Source: Paralichthys olivaceus (Eukaryota; Chordata; Actinopteri; Pleuronectiformes; Paralichthyidae). From it: DNA of 64,000 bases. The notes under the pieces were generated by a model that was given only the letters and a program-made list of their open reading frames with translations, was not told the DNA's origin and made no database searches. The stretch covers positions 3,906,001-3,970,000 of the forward strand of contig NC_091093.1 in the NCBI RefSeq assembly GCF_024713975.1, in the 5' to 3' direction. Below, one piece after another: positions 526 to 52,684 of the stretch. Every line of letters begins with the position of its first letter. Positions within the stretch are counted from its first letter, which is position 1. The translations under genes and the position numbers were made by a program.

Positions 526-1327
526 TCGATATGCAAAGTTACTGTTTCACATATGCCACTGACTAGTTGAAAGGAAGTCCCAAAGAGGAGAGGAACCTTT
601 TTGGCTTACATCCATTTTTCTTATTTTTTTATGTATCAGACTTGGTTTAGGAAAGTCACTTTTCTTTTATCAAATGTGGTTTGTTAGGCTCTCCCTGAAG
701 TAACATTTGAGTTTTAATACCTCTACGAATGTAATAATGAACATACTGACTCCTCTTTTGTCTCATATTTTTATGTTTCTCCTAGAGCCTGACCTGAAGT
801 CATAACAGTTGATATGAGCTGGTGCAGACCGCTTTAAATCACAGATCCCCTGTCAGCCGCTGCCTTGCAATAATTTCAGCTATTGGAGACGCTTAACTCT
901 GTTAGGTGAAATCACTTGACTTGACATTTTTTGAGGACATCCAACATTTCTTTGAGTTATTTTTAAAACAGAAACCTAGTTTTCTAGTTTTCGCTGCAGA
1001 TGGGGTAGATATGGTTTTCATTAGGGTAGAGAGCGGGCGGTGGAATTCAGAGCAGCTGAGACTAATGCTGTCAGCTATTAATCACATAAACTGGTACTGA
1101 GAAGTAATGTGCAGAGATAATGGAGCAGAGACTGGGGGAGGGAGAGTGTGTGTCGTGGCTTACACAGGCCTATCCAAAGAAAAAATCACTCATTACAGAA
1201 ACCGAAAGACACATGAGAGTGAACACAACAGTGAAGCTGCAGAATGTACAACCTGAACAATGAGCTGACAGACATTAAAAACTGAAGTTCATGTGATGAT
1301 TCTCACAAAGAGTGACTCCCTTCACTT

Positions 1328-1460
1328 CACTTTTTATAACAACTAAAGGTTTCCACAGGTTCTCCTTCATGTTTGGAAGGGGAAGGTGAGGGGTGTTCAG
1401 CTGCAACACACTGCAACTTCACCTCTGGATATCACTAAATTCTACACACTGAACCTTTAA
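1328..1460 (-). mobile_element. Partial MITE, same family as 51000-51344
   Basis: The right end 'tctacacactgaacctttaa' (1441-1460) is the terminal inverted repeat of the intact element at 51000-51344 in reverse orientation. Inner similarity is also visible ('tccttcatgtttggaagg', 'tatcactaaat', 'ggggtgttca'). The distal half is missing, so this is a truncated non-autonomous DNA transposon. Confidence 0.7.
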
Positions 1461-35689: not shown

Positions 35690-36430
35690 TACACCCAGAA
35701 AGGAATCCCAGTCGCTGTGTAGGGCGCAGCTCCACATGAACGGGACGCGGCCCTGCTCGGTTGTAGGCGTCACTCTGTGTGAATAGAACGAACGCAGCCG
35801 CAGCGTGTCTGGCTCCTGTCTCCGTCATATCTCGGGGGTCCCTGCGCCGCGGCTCTCCCTCCTCCTCCTCCTCCTCCACCACCTCCTCCTCCGGGCTGTG
35901 GCAAAACAACTGCGGAACAAGTGACTTCGTATGGTCCGACTGTTTTCCTCACAGGGGAAAGTAACAAGGAGAACATGCCTGCCGTCTCTAAAGGGGACGG
36001 GATGCGTGGCCTGGCCGTGTTCATCTCTGACATCAGGAACTGTGAGTTTGTTGATCCCACTCATAAGCCTCTTGGCTCGGCTAGTGACAAGTTAGCTCGC
36101 CGCCCCAACGTCAAGGCGGCGCTGGTAAACCCGGCATGTTGTTTCCAGAACATGTCGAGGAGTGTGTTGGTTTCCCCTCCTCGCATTTCGCACTGCTTTG
36201 CAAACCGAACCGGGTCCGAACAGCACGAGACAGCCGCTCAGCTAGTTAGCACACACTAACGTTAGTTAGTTAGCTGTTAGCATCAAGCAGCTAACGAAGG
36301 GCGTGGACCGCAGACTGAGATAACGACTAACTGGCGTTTGTGTTCGTCCGCAGCCTTTCGGCTCCGCGCAGCCACGTTACAGCTTCATGTTGTGTCCCAC
36401 CAGCGAAGTGTGGGCTCCGCGCTGACCCCC
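35690..36430 (+). promoter_or_regulatory. ap2a2: CpG-island promoter, 5' UTR and first-intron start of ap2a2
   Basis: CpG-rich DNA surrounds the ap2a2 start codon. The 5' UTR includes a (CTC)n tract at about 35858-35890. No TATA box is evident. A short upstream ATG at 35931 is out of frame with, and overlaps, the main start at 35975, which has the better context (A at -3). A good 3' splice-site-like 'gttttcctcacag' ends at 35954, so a 5' UTR intron is possible. Confidence 0.65.
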
Positions 36431-39400
36431 ATCTCCCGCTTGTTTGTTGAGTCTTAGTGCGGGAGGTTTGAGGGAACGTCTGGAGGACACATTATCAACA
36501 CCAAGTGTCCCGCAGAGACCTGCACCTGAGAAGATCTATACACATGAACACACAGATCACACGTGTTTAAATGTATTGATCTGTGTTGGTCAACATGTGG
36601 CCTGTCATTCCCCTCTTCTCCGTCAGCTTGTATGTTCCTTACATGTGTACATACAAGTGATCTGATAAACGTACTGCCTCGATCAGTCATTTTAAATTCA
36701 CTGACAATAATAATAAAATAATTTGACATACACTAACTAAAGGGAATTTGACTTACACATAGCTCAATTATGATTTAGTAATTACTTGTTGTAATAGCTA
36801 ATACCATTAATTGCATAATTATTATGTAAATGTTTTATGAGATTATGAGAAAACTGACTATTTGCACGTATGACCCATTTATCATATAATGCACATGTTT
36901 GAAAAGTGTTCATAACTTGATATAACAGACAATACACAGAGAAGACTCAGTCTGGTTAAGACTGCTTTTATTACTAATGCTGTCTGAGGTGGCCGTTGGG
37001 CTGGGTGATTCAACAATATCATTTTAATCAATAGCAATATAACAAAAGTCCAACATCCTTCTGATGCTTATGAATCATGCAAGCACAGTGAGGAGGTAGA
37101 GCACATAATTGATCCATGTCAGATTTATTTTTTTTCAAATGGACGAAGGGACTTGAACAGCTCCACCAATTCTGCTTACAGCTTTCATTTGGGGTATTTC
37201 GCCATCTCTTCAGGCTCTCAATACATTGACTAAGTTTACAAATTCTGTTTAGTTTACCCAGTCTGAGTTTACACATCTGACTGATGACACTGTTAAGCTG
37301 CTTTCAGACATGACTTTAACTCCACAGACTGCAGTTTCCGCAGACTTTCTGTGCCTGGCCTCCTAGTTTAATGTCCGTTGAAATCAAAGAGAAGTGGATG
37401 TGTGAACAAGCATCATGTAAATCTTTTCACTGTCACTTGTTGTCAACAGTGGTGGAGAAAGTACTTCAACATTTTACTTAAATAAAACTACGATTCACGT
37501 GACTAAAAAATATAAGAGTTTTCTACTTGAATAAAATACCTTCCTAGTGTAACATATTTCCAACTTCAAAGTCTACTACATTATTGTCCACCGTGTATTT
37601 GGTTTATTAGTCTAGACTGTCATATTAATAAGGAATGCTGCAGATTATGCTACGGAAAACAATTGCATTGAAATATTGATTCGTGGCTGAGTCTTGGCAG
37701 TGGCCTTTAAGAATTAATCTTTGGTGAGGGTTAGAATTAGAGTTACCCTAACCCCCCTTTATTCACCAGTGATGCTGCTGCTGCTGCTGCTGCTGCTACT
37801 ACAGATTTGCTTTTCTCCTGTGGATTAGATCAGTGAACCAATTGCCCTTTGTTTCAGAGATAAACAAAGTGAACATGTAACACGACAAAATGTATTTGAG
37901 TAGAAAGTACAGATATTTGCTGATGTATGTAGTTGAGTAAAAATATAGCACATCCCTCCATTTGTTGTTAATCCAATAGAGCAAGTGTTGGTTGTGTTTA
38001 AACGATAGAATTGCAGCTTTAGTATGTATCCAACAAATCTGCAGCAATGTGATGCTGTTGTGTCAACACATAAAACCTGTTAAATCCTGCTGGGAAGATT
38101 TGAGGCTGTTCTTGGGGAAGTGATCTGCGATGATGTCCCTAGGTCCAGTGTGTAAGATTTAAGTAAAAAGGATCTTTTTGCAGAAATGTAATAAAAAATA
38201 ATTTTTGATGTATTCACTACGGTGTAATAATCTAAATTGTTCGAATTGTTGTTTTCTTTACCCTAGGTAAAAGTAAGGAGGCTGAGATAAAGAGGATAAA
38301 CAAAGAACTGGCCAATATCCGCTCCAAATTTAAAGGTAGGTGAACAATTCTCAGAAATCAGGCTCAACTTACAGAATTTGGCACAAAGGGCCATGAGTTG
38401 TTGTTCTCATTCTATCCAAAGTCTGATTCATAGCACCTGATTGAAATAAAATCCTTGGCCCTCCATGAAACAAGTTCCTCTGACTCTGTTTACTGCTGCT
38501 GATTCACTAACTCATATGTGACCCTGTCTTGACTTTGACCCTTTTCAGTTTATTCAGCTTTGTTTAAATGACTGTTGCCACGACTGCACTGTCCACAAGT
38601 CCACACATCTCTTTGTGAACATATCTGTTTGAACATCCTGTTGGTGTTGTTTCTCCTGCCACCTGTCCCATGCTGCCTATAATTAGTTTGCTCTAGAATG
38701 AAGCTGGCTCCACTGCTTATAGTGCCCAGCGTTCTGGCCTCTGTTGTTTCTACCATATTCCCTATGTGCTCTCCTTCTTCTTTATTATGCCAGAGAAGTT
38801 TTTCATTTACGATGATTAGGTTTTCAATGTGCTTGTCTTTTAAAATCTTAAAAAAATGTCACACCCACATACATCTCTCATGTGACATCTGAAAAGAGTG
38901 GTACATTGTCAGAAGTCATTATAAATGCTTAGAAGCTACCAACGCAACATTTCTGTGGACATCAGGACACAACAGTGAAATAAATAAATAAATAGAAAAC
39001 TCTAATGCTAAGGAAATAGAAGGCAAAATCACAACCATGGCCAAGTCTCTCCAGGATTTAGCCTATATGGGATCCCATGATTTAGCACAAATGTGACCAA
39101 TTACTGCAGTATTTGTCACATCAGTTTTCCAGCAAATACAAAATCCATACTCTCTTTTCTAGTCAAAGTCAAAACACAGTAGAAAGGAAGCTTTATTCTC
39201 TGTAAACATCCTTTAAATATTTAACGAACTGCACAGTCAACTAATGTCCACTACATTAGTTTACTGTGCAGTTTGGTGAACTTTGTTTCGCAGCTGCTTG
39301 TCCTCTTTCCCTGCGTTTTGTTTCTGTGCTGCAGGATATAACGTTTTGATAACAGACTCTTGTCTGGAAATAACCCCACTGCAAATCTGTGATGTTTCTG

Positions 39401-42400
39401 CACCATTGCTCTCAGCTCTAGTACAGTGTGTTAGCAAAGTCAACCCCTTTTGAACCCGACGCTGTCTACCTCCTCTGCTGCCATACAGTGTGGTTGGTTC
39501 TTCAGCTGACAGTGCTGTTAGCAACATGAAAGATGCTGTGTGTTATGTTAGGATCTCATTAACTATGGCCATACTGCACAGCTTCTTTATATTTCTTTGA
39601 CTCAGAGAAATTAAAATGTGAGTGTTAACCGGTAAAATAAAACTCACAGAGGCTGTCACAGAATCCAGGCGTGGTGCAGCTGCCTTGGCAGCGCATGGTG
39701 GGGGTGGCCATGAATAATATATTTCTTTATAGTTCTAGGCAGAATCCATTTAAGGAAAAACATGTGTAAGAATCTTGATAATGTAATAAAATCAATCATA
39801 AAAAAATAAATCTTGACAAATTAAAACAAAGACATTGCCCCAACTGTATTCTAAATTATTTCATTTCACCCATAGATTATAAGACAAAACCTATCAACCC
39901 CCACCAACCTCCTTCCTCCCCTCCCCGTCACTCATCTGACTGAATGTATTCTTTACTGCCTATTGTATCCAGGGAAATGACCGACCTCTGCATTGTAAGT
40001 TCATGTAGACGTTCATCTCCATCTCTGTGTGTGGTTGTGTGTGTGTGTGTGTGTGTGGTTGTGTGTGTGTGTGTGGTTGTGTGTGTATATTTGTGCATGT
40101 GTGGATAGGAGACAAGGCTCTAGATGGCTACAGTAAGAAAAAGTACGTCTGCAAGTTGCTTTTCATCTTTCTCCTGGGCCATGATATTGACTTCGGACAC
40201 ATGGAGGCCGTCAACCTCCTCAGCTCCAACAAGTACACAGAGAAACAAATAGTAAGTGTCTCCTTAAGTTCATGCAGTGTCGATAGATGAGAGCTCATCA
40301 ATCACTAATCACACAAATATGTTTGATTGAAATCCCCATCAGAGTAGTGCTAAAAGGTGTGTATGTAACTTTTACAAACATAGTAGAATTTCACTAAAGA
40401 GTGTTTTTCAAAATACTTCTCCCTTCAGGGTTACCTGTTCATCTCAGTGCTGGTGAACTCTAACAGCGACCTGATCAGTCTCATCAACAATGGCATTAAG
40501 AATGACCTGGCCAGCCGCAACCCAACCTTCATGAACCTGGCTCTGCACTGCATCGCTAATGTGGGCAGCAGAGAAATGGCGGAGGCTTTCGCTTCGGAAA
40601 TTCCCAAGATCTTGGTGGCCGGGTTTGTACATAATCATTAATGCATCTATAGAAAGTCAATGTGACTCTAAAGCCATTTGCAGCCATTTAACTGCAAGTA
40701 AAATCTGGAGAATTAACTACAGAGATTATTGTAGTTTTCCTTTCACACATTCACAACGCAGTGGGACGTTTTCTGCACAGGCGAGAGGTGGTGCAGCAGG
40801 CAGAGGCTTGAAGTAATGATTAAGTCTGTTGCGGAAATCACGTGATTTTCTTTTCAACAGACAGACACCGGTGTCGGCCGTTGTCTCAATCGTCTTCATC
40901 TGTGTCTCCTATGACACAGCTTTTTCACCAGGAGATTGTTTTCATTTTTAAATGTTTGTGTCTGTTGGGTGTTAGAAGCATCATCACCGTCAACACCATA
41001 TGCACGCACGGAGCCTACATACGGGGCCACGCCGTTGCGTGTAGGTGTGTGTGCTTCGCTCTGCAATCACACTGCTGAAACGTTAGTGGCCGCGGAGCCG
41101 AAACACTAGTGGCCGTAGACTTTCTATACTACTGCACTTATTAACAAATTTTCTAGCGTCTCTGTTAACTTCAGAACAATGGCAAATGTTATCATATTGG
41201 AGCTGATAGATGTTGAAGAGCAATTACTTTTTCTTAAAGAACTGAAACGATGAAAAGAAAGACGTCAGAGAAGATGGTTTCTACAACCATTAAACCGAGC
41301 GAGGGGAAGCAGGAGAAACGGAAAAGCTGTCTGCTGAAAAATGCGATGCTACCAAGTGGACCAATCACATGTTCAATGTTTATTAGCGGTTTAATTTCAG
41401 TCACCTTGGAAACATTTGCTGAGCATCTGGCAAAATTTGAATTGTTCTGTATACATTTTGGGGATTTGTGTCAGTAAATGAAATCAGTTATTTTCTTCAG
41501 GCTATAATCCTTAGGATTTGAATTTCGTCTGACCCTATTTCTGTTTACTATTTAGAGTTTTTTCTGCAATAGCTGGTCATTGCATTTAAAGCCTGTAATG
41601 TGTGTCTTATGCAGTAAATTTCCATGCAGGTGGTGCAGTCAGCCATTCCTGCCATTTTTAAGATTCACAGAGGGATGTACAGGAAACGAAGCTCGCACAT
41701 TCAGCACTTCAGCGTGCCTCCCTGTCTATTACAGGATGAGGTTGGGCCGTGTGGTCTGTGCTCCACATTTTCTCAGGCTGTGCTGTAAACAGACATTAAT
41801 GCTGCTAATCTTCTGTTGCATATCTGATGGAGCAGCCATCCCAAGTGGTTGATGCATGTAAAGTCTTGTAAACTCTGGGGCCTGTACTGTTATAATGTAC
41901 TTCATAAAAAAACACAAATCAAGCATGACTGAAATCCTAAGGATTATAGTGTGAAACTGGCAGTGTCAATTTCAGTTGTATATAATGTTTAGATTGATCA
42001 GTGAATAATCAAGTTGTATTGTGCTTGCTCCTATCAGGGACACCATGGACAGTGTGAAGCAGAGTGCAGCACTGTGTCTGCTACGACTCAATAGGACGTC
42101 TCCTGACCTGGTGCCAATGGGTGAATGGACGGCCCGAGTGGTGCATCTGCTTAATGATCAGCACCTGGTGAGATCCTACCCATGTCCCAGTTTCACTCCA
42201 CACACTGGTTCTAAGAACATTTCGAGTATGTAGTGTAAAACTGAAGTACACTCAAAGAAGGGGGCAGGCCAACCAAATACTGTTGACGAACACTGTTCTT
42301 GCACAATGCATTGCACAAAGGAAATTAACTTACTCACTATTGAAAAAAAAAAACTGGGTGGTGGGGAAATGGTTTCAAAAAGTATTGAGAAACTTCTTGG

Positions 42401-42590
42401 GAAAAACTGTTTCTTTGTTAAGTGCAATTTGATTCAGTTTAATTCTAGTTCAACATTTACTTGATTATAATAATTAGTATATTGTGTATAGTATCAGTAT
42501 ATAGATTAGGTACACTGTTAAAACCCTCTGATATCTTCAGGCCAGGTCACTTTCTCTGCACCTAAAACACAGTTGCCCAGAGGATAAAAC

Positions 42591-42684
<94 letters not shown>

Positions 42685-45600
42685 TTTTCAGGGAGTGGTT
42701 ACAGCAGCCACCAGCCTTATTACCACTCTGGCTCAGAAGAGTCCTGATGACTTCAAAACATCCATCTCACTTTCTGTGGCCAGACTCAGCAGGGTGTGTG
42801 TCTTTCTCTAGCTTCACACAATGTCTCCTTATCTCTCTGAGGTCAGAGATTAAATCTGACTTGACATCTACTGACATGTTCCATTCTTCTTTCATGTCTA
42901 GATAGTGACATCTGCATCCATCGACCTGCAGGACTATACATACTACTTTGTTGCAGCACCATGGCTGTCTGTCAAATTGCTGCGTCTTCTTCAGTGCTAC
43001 CCTCCCCCTGGTATGATAAAGTACATTAATGTGTGTCTGTAAATGGTAAATGGTTTGTATTTATACGAGCTTTTCTAGCCTTGATGACCACTCAAAGCTC
43101 TTTACAGTACAGTTTGCCATTCACCCATTCACACACATTCATACAGTGCATCTATTAGCAGCAGTTTTTTTTTCTATGAGGGGCAATTCGAGGTTCAGCA
43201 TCTTGTCCAAGGACACTTCAGCATGCAGATGGGGAAGACTGGGATCAAACTGCAGACCTTCCTATAGGCCAGAGAAACCATGAAACTGCGTGGAAACTTA
43301 CTCTTCTACCATAAAAGGGGAAATAGTGAAATGTACCACTGCTAAATGGAGAAAACGTTTGCACATCTTCTACTATCAAAATTTAAGTTGTTTCTTTAAT
43401 TTTGCAGACATTTTATTTTTTCCAACACAAAATAACTTCTAGTTGCATTGAATAATAATAATGATGATATGGTCCGCACATGATCATTTCTTTCTTCTAC
43501 TGCCAGAACTAGAATCTTTGCACTCATTTTTAATAAAGTGTGAAGTTTCAAGATGCTGTTTCAACACCAGCTGGCATCTGAGTAGAAAAAGTAAAATATA
43601 TAGAAAATTATTTTTGACATGATATCATCTGATTGTTTTGGATAAAGAGTTGGAAAAACAATGACAGTGTTCACAAACCAGCAATATGGACTGCCTGCTC
43701 AAGGCTGGAATGTCTTGTGACATATGTTGTTTTTCAATACTAATTCAAAAATGTATGATGAAAGCATTATACTGAGAGTTTTTTCTGGAATACTTGGTGA
43801 GTGTTAAGGCTGAAGGCTCTGTTGTTGCAGAGGATGCAGCGCTGCGAAGTCGTCTCACCGAGTGTCTGGAGACCATCCTCAATAAAGCCCAGGAGCCCCC
43901 CAAGTCCAAGAAGGTCCAGCACTCCAACGCAAAGAACGCTGTTCTGTTTGAAGCCATCTCCCTCATCATCCACCATGACAGGTGGTTCACAATCCCAATG
44001 ACTAACTTTCCTCACTGAATTCTGAATATCGGATTCACAGAGATGTGTTGTGGAAAAGGAAAATGTGCTTGAGAAGTTTACCTCCAGGTGTAGCATGCCA
44101 GAAGCTGACGTAAAAAAAACAACAAGAACAGAACAAACTATGTTGTACCTCAGGTCGAAGCTGCTGTAGCTGTCACTAGTTCACACTCCTGTTTTGTGTG
44201 ACTCTTGTGTGTTTTAGAATTTTAAAATATTGGATGCTACAGTTCTGATTATGTGTCTCGTCCCTCAGTGAGCCCACGCTGTTGGTACGAGCCTGTAACC
44301 AGTTAGGTCAGTTCCTGCAACACAGGGAAACCAACCTCCGTTACTTGGCCTTGGAGAGTATGTGCACACTGGCCAGCTCAGAGTTTTCTCACGAGGCGGT
44401 AAAGACGCATATAGAAACTGTGATCAATGCTCTAAAGGTGAGTCAATCAGTTGTGTAATGTTAAGCTTTTGCATGTTAATGTGGAAAAAATGTGCAATAA
44501 CTCTTCAGAAGCTCTTCAGTGTCCTCTTATGATCTTTGTGTCATTTAGGAGGAGAATAAGTTGATTTACGTAAAGTTGCACATTGTCACCTCAGGTTTTC
44601 TCTCAATGTGTTACCCAAAAAATTTTTGAAAAAGATTTGATAAAACTGTGCAAAATACAAGCTGTAATTTATTTAATTATCATGTTTATTCCAAGTCAAG
44701 GCTTGAGTGCAAAGTAATTTATTTAAACCTGACCTCCAGATTATATTTAGTTTGTCATATCTTTCACCACTTTAGATGATTCACATTATTGCAAATCATG
44801 TCTGTCTGTCTTCCAAATATTCCCATGATGGTGCTGAAAGAGCTAATATTGACATACAAATTGGACATTACCTCTTTATAGTTTACAGTTACATCTTTAT
44901 TGATTTTAAAGAAATAGTCGTGATGTGGCGGCAAGTCTCCCATCGGTCATTTCACATCTTCTGTTAATGTGTGTCGTCAATACAGACAGAGCGAGATGTG
45001 AGCGTCCGTCAGCGGGCTGTGGATCTGCTCTACGCCATGTGTGACCGCAGCAATGCCAAGCAGATTGTGGCTGAGATGTTGAGCTACCTGGAGACGGCCG
45101 ACTACTCAATCAGAGAGGAGATAGTGGGTCATCAGCATAATTCTGACCGTCATTATATTCCTACCGGTGCCTCTCTCGCTCTCAGCCTCTCGCTTCTCTC
45201 TCCCTCAGGTGCTTAAAGTGGCAATCCTTGCAGAGAAGTATGCTGTGGACTACACCTGGTATGTGGATACCATCCTCAACCTCATCCGCATCGCCGGCGA
45301 CTATGTCAGTGAAGAAGTGTGGTATCGGGTTATTCAGATTGTCATAAACCGAGATGATGTCCAAGGCTATGCTGCAAAGACTGTTTTTGAGGTGAGTGTC
45401 ACTGATGAAAAATAACATCTACATGTTGGCTGATGAGTGGTTGAGATATAGCCACCTGACCTTAAACTGCTTTCAGATATGGGCTGATTTTCCTGAAATT
45501 TTCTGGAGGGGCTGTATGTGAGAACACAGATGTCTGACTTGGTTGCTCCAGACATTTTCCTGAACATTTCCCTCCAGCTAGTTGGTAAAAAAGTATGGGA

Positions 45601-48600
45601 AATGTCACAGTGAGCCCGCAAGCTAAAATATAGCAGGAAAACCTCCCAAAAATGTCCAGCGAGTGAGCTTACGAAGAACTGGCTGGTGTTGTAAACAAAA
45701 ACACTACTTTCTGTGGCAGTATTTATACAACTTGCCCTGCCTCCTGAATGCTTTTCCCCAGGTTCCACCCCTTGCCTGAACGTTCTGAAAATGTTCCTGT
45801 TGTTGTGAACATGTCTGACCCGCACAATACTATGCTGCGTTTATATATGTGAAAGGCAAATTTTCAGCTTTATAGTAGACAGCAGTTTATTTTTTCTTCC
45901 ACGTTGATCCTAACCCAATGCTGTCATGCCTCGTGAACTCTTGTAGGCACTACAGGCCCCCGCCTGCCACGAGAACCTGGTTAAGGTGGGGGGTTACATC
46001 CTGGGGGAGTTTGGTAACCTCATTGCTGGTGACTCACGCTCCAGGTAAAATAACATCATCAACATAGTGGAATTCTATGTTCAGAAAGTCCTACCATTTT
46101 CCAGCTGATGTTAATATGCTTAGCTCGTCTCTTTCTTTGAAGGTTTGGTTGGTTTTGAATACAACTTTTTGTAGCGTTGGTGAACCAAACCTTAATACAC
46201 CATGTCAAAAACCTAACATGGTGTATTGACTTTTGCAATGTGATTTGAATCTAGTCCAGAGCTGACATCATGGGGTTTTACTGTTAATATGTTGTCTTCT
46301 TCTGTGTCGTCTGTTTTTCAGCCCTCTGATCCAGTTCAACCTTCTTCACTCCAAGTTTCATCTCTGCTCTGTGCCAACTCGTGCACTGCTGCTGTCGGCT
46401 TACATCAAGTTCATTAACCTGTTTCCTGAAATAAAGGCCACGATCCAAGACGTCCTGCGGTCAGACAGCCAGCTCCGAAACGCTGACGTGGAACTTCAGC
46501 AGAGAGCCGTCGAGTACTTGAGGCTCAGCTGCATTGCCAGCACTGACATATTGGTTTGTGAATAATTATGCAGGGAGTGGACAGAATATTTATAACACTT
46601 CCTCCGTTACTGTTAACTTCTACTGGCCTCACTTACCTGACTTTCTTCCTCTCTTTCTCTTTTTCCTCTCTGTCTCTTCATAGGCCACAGTCTTAGAAGA
46701 AATGCCTCCTTTCCCAGAGAGGGAGTCGTCAATCCTTGCCAAGCTAAAGAGGAAGAAGGGCCCGGGCAATCTGCCCGATATCGACGACGCCCGGCGGAAT
46801 GTCAATGGCAACACTGAGCACAGCGAGAAAACTGAAGCCACTAACAAGGTGACTCCACAGTAGCTATGAAATGTGGTCAGGACAATATTTTTCATGTGAG
46901 CCACACACTGAAAATATCACCTCAACAAGTGAAGAAATATCACCACAGGTTTTTCTATGTTCTACTGCGCTATTTATCCTGGCATCTCATAAACATTATA
47001 ACTGTCATATTCTGCATATTGTTGTATATTGCTTCTTACTATTTTATAGCCTTTACCTTTCTTTTCTTTTCTTTTTAACATTTACTTGATCTTCACCTCC
47101 CCTTGTCCTGTCTCCTTTCCTCTGCTCTTTCTTTTCCTCCATCAGTCTTCTATTTCACTGTTGGCAGACCTTCTACCTACCAACAGACCCCGTCCTGCCT
47201 CTTCTAGCCCCGTCATTCTCTCTGCTGGGATCATGGTATATTGACAGTTAGAAACAACACATAGCATAGTGAATGACATGTATATTTATTAGCACTGTGA
47301 GTGACCCGCTGCTCTTGTCTCGTGTATTTTTAAATTATCTGGTTTGATTCTTTGGAAATGTATCTGTTTGATGCACCATTAGTGCTTTATTATACCAAGT
47401 GATTCTGATGTCACTGTATAGAAATAAACCAGACCTGAAGCGTTTATAGGTCATACAGTGTGGCGTTCTTTAGTCAGTAGCCCGTCCAAGACCCTAACAG
47501 TGTGTTACAATGTTCAATCACGTAATAGCTGTAGTTATTTTATATTCAAGCATATTACTTAGTTGTGCTCAGTATGCAGATGCTGTGTGTAAAAGATTAT
47601 CATTGCTGATGTTTCTCTCCCAGGATTCCACTCACTCCTTCACAGACCTGCTGAATCTGAACTCCACCCCTTCAGCAGGAGCCAATCTGCTGATTGATGT
47701 CTTCTCTGACAGCTCTACCCTCGAGTCCACAGACGCGTGCGAGGAAAACTTTACCAGGTGAGACCATACTGTGATATAGTTGATGAAATTTGCTGACAAA
47801 TGGAAGTTCCAGCTGTTTGTAAATAGTCACACATACAGTAATTCTCATTCAATAAAGTAATAAAGAGGCACTCTACAGATTCAACTGTTGGGCTCCATGT
47901 CTGAGTGATTAAATGCTTTTCATGTAGAGGAAGAACAAAGTCTATCAATGTGTTGAGCAAAACTCTTGACTGTGTAGTCCCACTCAATGAACTGAAACTC
48001 AACTGAACGGTTGATATTTCCCATGATCCCCAGCTTTTTGAACCAGAAGAGCTGCTTCTGTAACAAATACACCAAATTCTGTGTAGAATTCTTCATATTT
48101 TAAGTTTCCTCGCTGAATAATGGAGCGAAACAATGGTTTATAATAACTTCTAAGTTGTTTTTACCTGGTCTACAGTTCAGCATTAGTCTTTAACTTGTTG
48201 TGCCTGATTCTGGCAATTGAAGCTGCAATTATCAATCACTTCCGCTCTCCTCACAGGAGATTGTACCTGTTCATCAAAGTTACCTAGAGCAAGAACAGAC
48301 GTTCTGGGTAGAGTGAGAGTAATACAGCTATTTAAAGTTTAAAAAAAAGATCAGAATCAAGCAGCAGAGGTATCCTTACTTTTAATTTCTTATATGGTTC
48401 AAACTCCAGAATCTAGTTTTTCCCATAATGTAAAAAGATGGTGTCTTTTCTTAGACCCTACCCTCTTAGTACTATCTAACAACACTACTTTAAAAACTCC
48501 AAGGTAGCTTGTAACACAGTCTTAATATATTCTGTATCAGTATACTCATGCATCTGGTCTGAACAGCCTCCTGCCTTTTTTCCAACTCTGTGTTGTAAAT

Positions 48601-51600
48601 GTGTAATTGTGTTCTTGTAAATTCCAGGTTTGTGTGTAAGAACAACGGTGTTATCTACGAGAACCAGCTTTTGCAGATTGGACTCAAGTCTGAGTACAGA
48701 CAGAACCTGGGTAAGAAGCTTGGTATCACAATGTGTTTATGATAGGTCAGAATGGTGCGTCTTTTACTGCCGGGAAATCACATCAGACATTAGTTTGAAT
48801 GGAATTTTAACCTCGAAAGCCTCTTTTACACATCCTTCCCAAGGTAGCAATGTTGTGCATTCATTCTGTAAAACCATTGTCTGTAAAAAAACAGGGAACT
48901 TAGGGGGCTGACATGGCTGCAAAAAATGCTGACTCTGTTATACACATCCTGTCTAACAGGGCAATGATATGTCAGCTGCTTTGGTTCAGTGTAAACAAGC
49001 AAAGGCGGGAATCTGCATGAAATTGCAGACACTTTTGTCAGACTATATCATTTTACATGTAGTGGATACTGGTCAGATGTGACTTGTTCAACAGGATGAA
49101 CTCAATGATTGTTCCTCTTGTCCTCCAGGTCGCTTGCACATGTTTTATGGCAACAAGACGTCCACCCAGTTCCTCAGCTTCTCCTCATCAGTGTCAAGTC
49201 CCGACACACTCATGACTCATATCCTTTCTACTGCTCGGTTTGTGACACTAACTGATCACTGGAGTTTACTTAATGCAGCTAAATCAACAATCTCTACTCC
49301 TTCTCAGTCAATTTGGTATTTTTCACTTTAGTACTGAAGGTGACTCAAATTGTCAAATAAAATAACTACTCAGCTCGGCTTCCAACACAGCAAAAAGGGC
49401 CTTGTAAATAGGTATCAACTATTCAGTAGTGATGCAGTCAGGCTTGTGTTGTTTAGTTATTCGTAGAATCCTTGACTCCTCGTCTCCACAGCTGAATGTC
49501 CAGGCGAAGACAGTAGACCCCGTAGTAGAAGGTGGGGCTCAGGTCCAGCAGATCCTCAACATTGAGTGTGTGTCAGATTTCACGGATGCACCAATACTCA
49601 ACATCCAGTTCAGGTTGGTCTTCTGAATCCATCCTATGATGTTTCTGGTATCCAGTGTAATATCTGCTGATTCCTGACTCTGCGTGTGAACAGGTACGGT
49701 GGAACTCTCCAGAACATTGCAGTGAAACTCCCTGTGATGCTGAACAAGTTTTTCCAGCCCACAGAGATGATGTCCCAAGACTTCTTCCAACGCTGGAAAC
49801 AGCTTGGAGCGTAAGACTCACTCCATGTTATCAGTGCTATGCTGCTTTTTCCGGTCAGCAGTAGGGGATGTTCCTCCCTGTATTTCATGTCTCTGTCAGA
49901 AGAAACACGAACAGTTGAACAACATCAGTTCAACTTTTTTTATGGTCTCATTAATAGTTGATTAATTGAAAAAAAAGAAAATCAGCAGATTAATCAGGAA
50001 GTAAAATTGTTTTATTTGCATCACTTGTTGAAATAGGAGGTTATTCAAGCTCTCCAAATCTCTTATTGTAGCAGGCCTTTTATTTTGAGCTGGCATCACA
50101 TTTGCCACTTTCCTCTGAGACATCTGCTGTAACAAATTCCAAATAAGTCGGTACTCGATCAAAGATCATTTTTCTTCTTCTTAAAAAGTCTAAAATTTGT
50201 ATGAATATATGACATAATTATAAATATGAAATCATTCTAGAGCAGTGCCTGTTCTCCACATGGCTGTTTGGAATGGACTGTTTGGTTGGCATGTGTTAAT
50301 GCTGGTTGCATCTTTCTTGTTGATTCTGATGTTATAGTCAGTGTTCTTCATAAAATGAAACTGAATTTGCTTTATTACCTTTCACATTTGTAGTTTATAT
50401 GTAAGTTTGAATAATTAGTGTGACTGGTGGAGTTTTTTTACTTATATTGCATGTATTAACTAGGTCTTGCATACCTTTAGAAAGTGTGAAACAGAATGAG
50501 GTCATGTATATATCAGGTTTTGTTGTTGATGGTTTTCTACAGTGACATGATGTTCTGTTATTTTCCTCCTTGTGAAAATCAGTATTTATCCTCCCTCCCT
50601 TCTCTCTGTGTCCTCAGGCCTCAGCAAGAGGTTCAGAAAATCTTCAAAGCCAAACACCCGATGGACACAGACGTTACCAAGGCCAAGGTACCCAAAAACT
50701 CCAACCTTTTAAAGAGAAACTGCTCAGCTGCTGACATGAACCAGCTCATTGTGACATGCTCCTGTGTGAGCTGTGATTATACACACATCATCACAGCATA
50801 CAGGAAATCTACCTGAATGGTCTCTCATTCTCACTTCTACTGATTTTAAAAGTGATCCATTTTGTGTATTGACTGTTCATTTATTTCATTTATTTATGTC
50901 TGATTCAAAACATAAAGACCATTCTCCAAACATTTCCAGCATGAAGTGACATTCCACAATGTTTGAGTCCAAAACTACTTTTCTGAAAAAAAAAAATTCT
51001 TAAAGGTTCAGTGTGTAGTATTTAGTGATATCTAGTGTCGAAGTTACATGTTGCAGTTGAACACCCCTCACCTCACCCTCTCCTTCCAAACATGAAAAAG
51101 AACCTGTGGTAAACTTCAGTTGTCATAAAAACTCAAAAGATGTTTAGTTTGTTCAGTCTGCACTAATGTCTCCTCCATGTACATATAAAGTATTTGAACA
51201 TAAAGGGTCTTTTCTGGGGTAAAGAAAACTACAATTCATATAATTTAGATGAAACGAACTAGTGAAAACATCATGAGGATTATTCTACATTAAATTTCTA
51301 CCCATAGATCTCTTTCACCTAAATCTTACACACTGGACCTTTAATGAAACTCACAAATAAGCTGTTTTCAGACATGAACTGAAGTCTGGACATTTACTTG
51401 AATTAATCAGAGGGAATGTCAAGAGTTTCTGCCAATCCCCAAGTAAAAATGTTCATAAAATGTCTGAGTCAGAATACTGCAGGAAAAAGAATCCACAGCC
51501 AGCTATCAGTTATGTCAATGATGACACAGAAAATGAAATGAACACAAATATCTTGGGTTGAAAAAGAGACGCAAAACCAGCACAAGACGCAGAAGAAGAT

Positions 51601-52684
51601 ATCTTGGATAACTTGGAAAGATAAAGAGATTAGACGATACGAGCAGACGCCTGTGTCGTTGTGCTGTAAACTAAAACATGTGGTTTCCACAACGGAATTT
51701 ATATGTTATTTCCTGCCTCCTGCCCCTCTACCCAGTCGTCACTCCTCACACGAACACTAGATATTTTCCAGTTGTTCTGAACGTGTCTTACCAACACAAT
51801 CTGCCACTGCGTTTTTCATATGTGAAAGGCAAAATGACACCCAACATTGAACATTATCTGGAGTTCATGTCTGAAAACAGCTATAGTCTCATGTGTCTGA
51901 TAAGTTCCCATATGAGGAAAAAGAGTATTGAGAATGAATGCAGATCATTTTATTAAGATAACCACCTGTACCAATAAGATCAGTCTGTGATCCTCCCTGT
52001 TCTGGACGACGGTGAACAGAATTTAAAAAAACCTATCTAGACTCAAGGTCCACGTCGTTCAGACTTCAGCCCTGTGTGGAAAACATTTTGTTTTAAATTT
52101 CTCTTTTGTATATTCTCATGCAGATCTTAGGTTTCGGCGTGGCTCTGCTGGAGCAGGTGGATCCCAATCCTGAAAACTTTGTCGGAGCTGGAGTCATTCA
52201 CACTAAGAACACTCAGGTGGGCTGCCTGCTCAGACTGGAGCCCAACGCACAAGCAGAGGTAAAAAAACAAACACACACACACGTCTCTCTATAGTTGTGA
52301 GGACACTCATTGACGTAATGCATTCACTAGCCCCTTACCATAACCTTAACCATCACAAGTAAATGCCTAACCCTACCCTAACTCTAAACTTAACCCTAAA
52401 ACCAAGTCTTAACCCTCAAACACCCCTTTGAATTTGTGAGGAGCAGTCAAAATGTCCTCACGTCAAAATGTCCTCACAAAGAACCAAACGTGTGTCCCTC
52501 ATAACTGTAGACAGACATGCGCACACACACTCATCTTATTTCATACTCATGTCTGCATTGAACCACCATCACACTGCCTGAGAAACTGTGTGTATTTTCT
52601 GTGCAGATGTACCGTCTGACCCTCCGGACCAGCAGGGACTCAGTGTCTCAGAGACTGTGTGACCTCCTCTCTGAACAGTTTTAG
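35975..52684 (+). CDS. ap2a2: AP-2 complex subunit alpha-2, complete, 23 coding exons
   Basis: Large subunit of the AP-2 clathrin adaptor. Exons: 35975-36041, 38267-38335, 40109-40251, 40429-40622, 42038-42167, 42692-42793, 42902-43010, 43831-43981, 44269-44437, 44986-45123, 45209-45391, 45947-46044, 46322-46553, 46684-46848, 47146-47235, 47624-47757, 48628-48710, 49129-49218, 49490-49613, 49694-49810, 50618-50687, 52124-52258 and 52607-52684. They sum to 2871 nt (956 aa; human 939). Residues 1-620 are the helical trunk, with the PIP2-binding Lys55-57 (GYSKKKY). About 620-724 form the hinge, with extra residues and DLL motifs. From 725 (RFVCKNNGV) runs the ear, with Trp858 in the DFFQRWKQL site that binds DPF/FxDxF ligands. 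Stretches such as [26 protein letters not shown] and [16 protein letters not shown] fit alpha-2 better than alpha-1. All introns are GT-AG except the one between exons 18 and 19. Confidence 0.97.
37448..37970 (+). repeat. Dispersed fish repeat containing (CTG)n
   Basis: 'ggtggagaaagtacttcaac' with 'ttttctacttgaataaaata' at the left and 'atttgagtagaaagtacaga' with 'tagttgagtaaaaatatag' at the right match a common teleost repeat of 'agtggtggaaagtact...caagtaaaagta' type. A trinucleotide run (tgc/ctg about 9 units) sits at about 37771-37797. It lies in ap2a2 intron 1. Confidence 0.6.
38140..38266 (-). mobile_element. Half MITE supplying the 3' splice site of ap2a2 exon 2
   Basis: 'ggtccagtgtgtaagattta' near 38143 is the exact reverse complement of the right end of the MITE at 51000-51344. 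Similarity continues in order ('tattcacta', 'atctaaatt', 'gaattgttgttttctttacc') up to the splice-site AG at 38265-38266. Beyond that the conserved ap2a2 exon replaces the rest of the element. Confidence 0.8.
40026..40088 (+). repeat. (TG)n microsatellite at the 3' end of ap2a2 intron 2
   Basis: An imperfect TG run with 'ggt' interruptions, ending about 20 bases before the exon 3 acceptor at 40108. The acceptor 'gcatgtgtggatag' lacks a normal pyrimidine tract. Confidence 0.9.
40930..41480 (+). other. Unassigned segment in ap2a2 intron 4
   Basis: A locally CpG-richer segment ('ggggccacgccgttgcgtgt', 'cgttagtggccgcggagccg') followed by an open frame of 75 codons at 41250-41477 without recognisable family. 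It has the look of an old DNA-transposon or repeat piece, but I cannot name it. Confidence 0.3.
42593..42690 (+). repeat. (TG)44 T8 tract directly before ap2a2 exon 6
   Basis: TG repeats run without a break from 42593 to 42680, followed by eight T (42681-42688) and CAG ending at 42691. Exon 6 starts at 42692 (GGA GTG GTT, Gly-Val-Val). The tract therefore forms the whole polypyrimidine region of this splice site. Confidence 0.95.
43033..43290 (+). repeat. Dispersed fish repeat in ap2a2 intron 7
   Basis: 'gtaaatggtaaatggtttgt', 'gaccactcaaagctctttac', 'tttgccattcacccattcac' and 'aaggacacttcagcatgcag' are the hallmarks of a very common teleost repeat. This is the longest copy in the window; relatives are at 405-525 and 2885-3015. 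Confidence 0.8.
45467..45820. mobile_element. MITE copy, same family as 51361-51882
   Basis: 'ctgctttcagatatgggctg' at the left, and 'gttgtgaacatgtctgaccc' with 'tatatatgtgaaaggcaaat' at the right, correspond to parts of the element at 51361-51882. It lies in ap2a2 intron 11 and is degraded. Confidence 0.55.
47146..47235 (+). CDS. ap2a2: ap2a2 coding exon 15: hinge exon, possible cassette
   Basis: A 90-nt exon that is in phase on both sides, so skipping it would keep the frame. It encodes [15 protein letters not shown] followed by a Ser/Pro-rich stretch ending in AGIM. The DLL motif is typical of adaptor hinges. The donor ATG|gtatat is weak. Exon status rests on the good acceptor, frame and composition. 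Alpha-adaptin hinges are known to be alternatively spliced in mammals (a brain insert in alpha-A). Confidence 0.7.
49219..49489 (+). other. ap2a2: U12-type AT-AC intron between ap2a2 exons 18 and 19
   Basis: The intron begins ATATCCTTT (49219-49227), the canonical U12 AT-AC donor. It has the branch-site sequence TCCTTGAC (49469-49476) and ends in AC (49488-49489), 14 nt after the branch A. Splicing here joins C|AG into a Gln codon and gives LMTQLNVQ, which matches the alpha-adaptin family at this position. No GT-AG alternative keeps both frame and homology. Confidence 0.85.
51000..51344 (+). mobile_element. Intact MITE in ap2a2 intron 21
   Basis: Terminal inverted repeats of about 25 bp: 'ttaaaggttcagtgtgtagt' at the left and 'ttacacactggacctttaa' at the right. 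It has no transposase. Partial relatives are at 1328-1460 and 38140-38266. Confidence 0.85.
51361..51882. mobile_element. Second intact MITE in ap2a2 intron 21
   Basis: 'gctgttttcagacatgaac' (51361-51379) and its exact reverse complement 'gttcatgtctgaaaacagc' (ending 51882) bound the element. It has no coding capacity. Degraded relatives lie at 45467-45820, about 37295-37410 and about 58660-58870. Confidence 0.85.
52285..52530 (+). repeat. Dispersed repeat in ap2a2 intron 22
   Basis: 'gtgaggacactcattgacgt', 'aaatgcctaaccctacccta' and 'aaaatgtcctcacaaagaac' make up a repeat common in fish introns. A second copy is at 32282-32455. Confidence 0.75.

Follow-up and report, generated by a model that had tools for sequence, protein, structure and literature searches.

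The window in the present study, namely the whole 64-kb stretch of DNA that was analysed (C1:3906001-3970000, from a genome of 588 Mb in 25 contigs), carries the AP2 alpha-2 gene, ap2a2, on its plus strand. A tblastn search with the human protein returned ordered exon pieces from 35975 to 52681, which span query residues 1-940 almost completely and contain no stop within an exon match. The first 485 residues align collinearly with AP2 alpha-2 chains in the PDB (1 to 485). ap2a2 is an open gene. The acceptor AGs of 20 further introns were placed by hand; Rfam gave no match in 35900-40200. The features discussed below are as follows, with a slash marking a junction.

35975..36041, plus strand: coding part of ap2a2 exon 1, 22 residues and the first base of Cys23 (tblastn, splice/frame check, PDB match)
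36042, plus strand: exon 1 donor, GTGAGT (splice/frame check)
36042..38266, plus strand: intron 1, from the exon 1 donor to the exon 2 acceptor
38137..38144, plus strand: left-edge CCCTAGGT, host CCCT followed by the MITE terminus AGGT; candidate copy of the ancestral acceptor
38141..38266, plus strand: left half of a MITE, including pyrimidine tract and AG, with the terminal repeat at 38141-38161
38243..38266, plus strand: predicted 3' splice site of exon 2, the last 24 nt of the half, equal to the MITE consensus; acceptor score 7.7
38261..38268, plus strand: right-edge CCCTAGGT, MITE CCCTAG followed by exon GT
38267..38335, plus strand: exon 2, the rest of Cys23, 22 residues and the first base of Gly (tblastn, frame check)
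38336, plus strand: exon 2 donor, GTAGGT (splice/frame check)
51000..51344, minus strand: intact MITE, TTAA-AGGTCC ... GAACCT-TTAA, young form with internal CCCCAG/AAAAG
1326..1460, plus strand: separate right-half fragment of the MITE family, with inverted repeats I1 and I6; score 92

The codon for Cys23 is split by intron 1, its first base lying in exon 1 and the other two opening exon 2, and all 22 whole residues of exon 2 are as in the human protein. An AP2 alpha paralogue on contig 5 (L039) has the same codon and phase at the start of its exon 2, with AACT in exon 1 and ...cccttgttag/GTAAGAGC at exon 2. Since the two junctions are identical in place, intron 1 and its phase are old, and exon 2 of ap2a2 is ancient. 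The paralogue acceptor, cccttgttag/GT, differs from that of ap2a2, though at the same codon.

A MITE half at the end of intron 1

The MITE family concerned is large and flanked by TTAA, with the ends AGGTCC... and ...ACCT, and TTAA followed by the first 20 bases was found exactly in 2357 copies in the 588-Mb genome. By this target it may belong to the piggyBac superfamily, the TTAA flanks being the feature observed; the consensus also contains an internal CCCTAGAATG, the letters of which after TTTA are like a piggyBac end, which may be chance. The family has two forms, with internal ACCCTAG/AATGGG and ACCCCAG/AAAAGG, the first of which is presumably the older. The acceptor 15-mer TTTTCTTTACCCTAG occurs exactly 729 times in the genome, followed by A in 718 cases and by another base in 11. 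In a check for a hairpin that could account for breaks at the AG, the young element folded modestly (z -2.18) and no clear stem ending there was seen, and the first 13-mer of the family was not found in the literature searched.

The initial annotation had recognized within intron 1 a 20-mer that is the reverse complement of the end of the intact MITE. We place it at 38142-38161, within 1-2 bases of the original coordinates, and the preceding A also belongs to the element; the terminal AGGTCCAGTGTGTAAGATTT of the family is thereby exact at 38141-38160. The co-linear similarity of approximately 125 bp proposed at the same time was reproduced against a consensus of 27 copies, to which 108 of 125 aligned bases were equal, the 27 close copies themselves lying at 88.2-96.8%. 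Against the intact copy (51000-51344), 38141-38273 gave a local score of 69.5. A first control for this score took in the locus itself, and up to 0.18% of random segments reached it. In a clean control, 5000 random segments of the window, with MITE-bearing stretches left out, were scored against the half consensus from the 27 copies, and none of the 5000 reached the score of the whole half (85.5, control maximum 19.5), of the half without its terminal repeat (65.5, control maximum 19.0), or of its last 45 nt (33.5, control maximum 14.5), so that the observation of the initial annotation is upheld close to the AG as well.

As also described there, the MITE ends at the AG, where exon 2 begins and completes Cys23. 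In a genome search with the half, 40 places were scored of 1974 candidates. For 23 of the 39 scored places other than ap2a2, the match likewise stops at the G of the AG (query base 127, 38266); 12 extend to 133-134, and the remaining four end at 116, 125, 126 and 128. In the intact copy, the extension beyond the AG crosses a gap onto AAAAG. TTAA is absent on both sides of the ap2a2 half, which is preceded by CCCT and followed by exon GTAA, indicating a fragment rather than an intact element. The right half in its young form was not found in ap2a2 introns 1 and 2 (scores 14.5-16.0), and the 100 bases past the ap2a2 AG scored only 9.0 against the right half, so that no transposon sequence was found in the mature exon, as TE exonization would entail. 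These similarities show 38141-38266 to be of MITE origin. A search with 37860-38141 placed a short dispersed repeat at 37860-37948 in intron 1, where all 39 other scored places fall, covering the first 89 bases; the left flank at 37949-38141 had no other match in the same search.

The half as the predicted acceptor of exon 2

Acceptors were scored with a small matrix built from the 20 other ap2a2 acceptors placed by hand and that of exon 2 of the paralogue, each being left out of its own scoring. The MITE acceptor of ap2a2 scored 7.7, with 12 pyrimidines of 15, within the range of the 21 reference acceptors (-5.0 to 13.2), and the MITE consensus itself scored 8.2; the MITE brought a ready-made acceptor with it. 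Both the tract and the AG lie in transposon sequence, as in a TE-derived splice acceptor. A further TTTTTGCAG inside the half ends at 38183; if it were used, the exon would gain MITE sequence. Splicing to the upstream CCCTAG would yield CPVCKI, followed by a stop.

Regarding the interpretation offered in the initial annotation, the part that stood is that the tract, the AG and the branch-site stretch lie in the MITE half and that the exon is ancient, with the same phase in the paralogue. The branch region and pyrimidine tract of an ancient exon, and probably its AG, are thus MITE-derived. The use of the AG at 38265-38266 in RNA is predicted to be very likely, and the branch site is predicted to lie within the half. 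An older tract was presumably lost, and exon 2 is expected from its frame and conservation to be constitutive. If the ancestral site had identical letters, the last AG, or CCCTAG, could itself be ancestral.

The sequence also hints at maintenance of the acceptor. In comparison with the consensus, the ap2a2 half is changed at 17 of 80 middle bases and at none of the 24 tail bases, the chance of an unchanged tail being 0.022 under family-scaled rates (P = 0.011 in a plain comparison). The evidence for constraint is nevertheless weak because the first 21 nt, the terminal repeat, are likewise unchanged, the tail is also unchanged in 4 of the 27 other copies, and these 27 reference copies, being the closest matches to the ap2a2 half, are a biased sample. 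Mild support for constraint on the last 24 nt may be seen in these values.

Edges of the half and the route of its origin

The two edges of the half are the only sites of the 8-mer CCCTAGGT in the 64-kb window, and CCCT is expected before a MITE end with a chance of about 0.0026-0.0028. Among the 27 close copies, exact TTAA stands on the left in 17 and CCCT in none. When a left end was taken as strongly non-TTAA if its first base was not T, its second not A and its fourth not A, 14 such ends, including that of ap2a2, were found vs 2357 exact TTAA. Seven of the 13 other copies with odd left ends retain TTAA at the right; therefore, the left TTAA has at times been lost afterwards. Any event that joined MITE CCCTAG to exon GT would be consistent with the right edge.

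We consider it highly probable that a MITE, as a copy or in part, was joined to exon 2 of ap2a2 and that its CCCTAG acceptor took the place of the ancestral acceptor or came to overlie it. The internal CCCTAG of the MITE would have come to abut exon 2 directly, and the spliceosome would then use a branch site in the half, TTTTCTTTACCC as the tract, and the AG at 38265-38266; Cys23 would be completed in the ancestral frame, leaving the protein unchanged. The likeliest route would be an insertion in intron 1 followed by one deletion or by incomplete gap repair, which would have joined MITE CCCTAG to the AG/GT at the exon. We hold insertion with subsequent loss to be slightly more likely than not, ahead of the templated insertion described below, with some weight left to other routes. 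Other halves also break at or near the AG (L157 and L059, described below), and therefore a break at this place with subsequent selection is possible. The initial annotation had likewise proposed an insertion and a deletion of the old acceptor, and this part of its interpretation stays a proposal, the left edge being CCCT instead of TTAA and CCCTAGGT being found at both edges.

The edges are the reason for weighing a templated insertion through microhomology, which we regard as unlikely and yet as the most serious alternative. The ancestral sequence would have been ...CCCTAG/GTAAAAG, and repair synthesis would have switched to the MITE at AGGT and back at CCCTAG, which would have duplicated CCCTAGGT with the half between the copies; the AG would never have been lost, only the tract and branch region being replaced, and in fishes without the half the intron would be expected to read ...gcgatgatgtCCCTAG/GTAAAAG. 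Such an event would account for the similarity ending exactly at the AG, for the left edge without TTAA, and for the occurrence of CCCTAGGT at the two edges only, with the low chance of CCCT given above. However, the upstream CCCTAG, as an acceptor, scores -3.05 with 8 pyrimidines of 15 and ranks 72 of the 134 AGs in 36100-38300, and just one of the 21 reference acceptors lies below -3.05 (-5.0), yet 3 of 21 have no more than 8 pyrimidines. Moreover, CCC-TTAA-AGG minus TAA also gives CCCTAGG, which requires one small deletion and a 1-in-64 coincidence, and the right TTAA kept in 7 of the 13 odd copies indicates that TTAA can be lost later.

We consider it very improbable that the main acceptor is another AG of intron 1 rather than that of the MITE, or that exon 2 is skipped. 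Six AGs in 36100 to 38300 outscore the MITE acceptor in the small matrix, but none of them adjoins exon 2; the junction of the paralogue falls at the identical point of Cys23, mammalian AP2 alpha-2 chains show collinearity across it, and the residues of exon 2 are kept without exception, as described above. A chance convergence, in which an ordinary acceptor came to resemble a MITE, is ruled out by the 5000-segment control, no segment of which matched the inner part or the last 45 nt, and by 126 nt of co-linearity from the exact MITE terminus, although the CCCC-form tail 15-mer stands outside a clear MITE context in 5 of 40 places, four of them without an upstream MITE signal (scores 7.0-10.0).

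Returning to the joining of a MITE acceptor to exon 2, a stronger version is conceivable, which we hold to be slightly less probable than templated insertion itself: the acceptor of an ancient constitutive exon would have been overwritten in one repair event, through microhomology of the splice site CCCTAG/GT with a MITE of the same letters, and the MITE would act as a store of acceptors. If this is true, an abundant transposon offers ready acceptors that may be swapped without touching the protein, the letters of a splice junction are landing pads for repair, and more swaps should exist, for which the locus L159 described below is a marginal lead.

Other MITE acceptors and known systems

Places with the acceptor 15-mer were read base by base, 75 in total (11, 24 and 40), and among them the MITE passes at its AG into a known exon in ap2a2 only, the test for a downstream exon covering ap2a2 and L159. 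Ten of the 11 exact copies of TTTTCTTTACCCTAG followed by a base other than A were rejected, as they continue into the right half with scores of 32.0-148.5 vs 11.0 for ap2a2, each the better of two; the 24 copies with A and then another base all continue into the MITE (43.0-72.0), as do 33 of 40 copies in which the CCCCAG form precedes a base other than A (scores above 25). One place of this form (L150) departs from the MITE about 14 nt after, and in five (L121, L125, L126, L146 and L153) the 10 nt upstream of the 15-mer show no MITE tail, L121 being the exception to the lack of signal further upstream noted above. For a further 694 CCCTAG copies followed by AA only the number was taken, and exons that start with AA after a MITE acceptor would be missed in this way; the GTTTTC... 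form has 458 copies followed by AA and then a base other than A.

In L157 (L130 lengthened; G000:C6:4854400-4855000), a left half with TTAA at its left end stops exactly at CCCCAG and is followed immediately by a second TTAA, and is perhaps the product of incomplete gap repair or of a deletion of the right half up to the end of the element. One of 56 copies retrieved through similarity, L059, departs from the MITE at the AG or no more than a few bases from it, into a run of A. Breaks at the AG are therefore rare, not unique, and that of ap2a2 was presumably kept because it splices.

The locus L121, taken at greater length as L158 and L159 (G000:C2:13802568-13803168), carries an acceptor tail of the MITE type, immediately followed by an open frame of 108 codons, LYSSKEWCQFLMGVW..., which by eye we take to resemble a fish V1R-type receptor and for which a Pfam search (E up to 0.1) gave no match. 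Aligned in register, the 110 nt upstream of the tail score 4.0 against the half, vs 65.0 for ap2a2; of 5000 window segments 26 scored at least this high, and of 5000 shuffles 86 (42 of 5000 and 63 of 3000 in an unanchored test). L159 may be a second, much diverged acceptor swap, albeit a marginal one, and was not counted because it is the best of five.

Splice sites from transposons are usually discussed as the origin of new or alternative exons. Alu elements, the 3' splice sites of which were reportedly treated by Lev-Maor et al. in 2003, carry an internal pyrimidine tract and AG throughout the family, and in this they are like the MITE of ap2a2; unlike the present case, they are retroelements and yield new, mostly alternative exons. 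An acceptor swap at an ancient exon was not found in the literature searched and may still be in print.

The available parts of two studies on exonization of TEs and on alternative 3' splice sites of TE origin (Sela et al., 2007, PMC2394776; Sela et al., 2010, PMC2911107) describe, as in ap2a2, a transposon that gives a host gene a 3' splice site. In the cases covered there, the transposon is added as a cassette exon, extends an existing exon by means of an alternative site, or becomes a new constitutive exon, whereas in ap2a2 no exon sequence is added and the ancient exon boundary is kept. Introners, as far as described in the part of the source consulted (PMC9860276), are like the MITE of ap2a2 in having DNA-transposon signatures, some with a 3' splice site and 4-bp TSDs. 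They make new introns, whereas the ap2a2 intron, shared with the paralogue in both codon and phase, is old, only its 3' end having changed. An acceptor swap with an unchanged exon would thus be a new form of TE splice-site exaptation, represented by a single case. Such a swap with an intact protein would show that core splice signals are replaceable by transposon sequence, and it would escape scans limited to exons or proteins. Since hundreds of copies of the family carry the same tract and AG, the frequency of swaps is countable in fish genomes with RNA data.

The start of exon 2 is donor-like, GTAAAAG in ap2a2 (38267-38275) and GTAAGAG in the paralogue. Exons that carry recursive 5' splice sites have been described as starting in this donor-like way (PMC6224609); 'AP2A' does not occur in the main text of that source. 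In the paralogue, exons 2 and 3 form one unbroken stretch, and ap2a2 intron 2 (38336-40108) has no counterpart there. Intron 1 of the paralogue holds an opposite-strand MITE of the same family as the ap2a2 half (G000:C5:23880367-23880382, L128; score 61.5), and the DNA around its exon 1 (L044) contains a further match to the family, with a score of 70.5.
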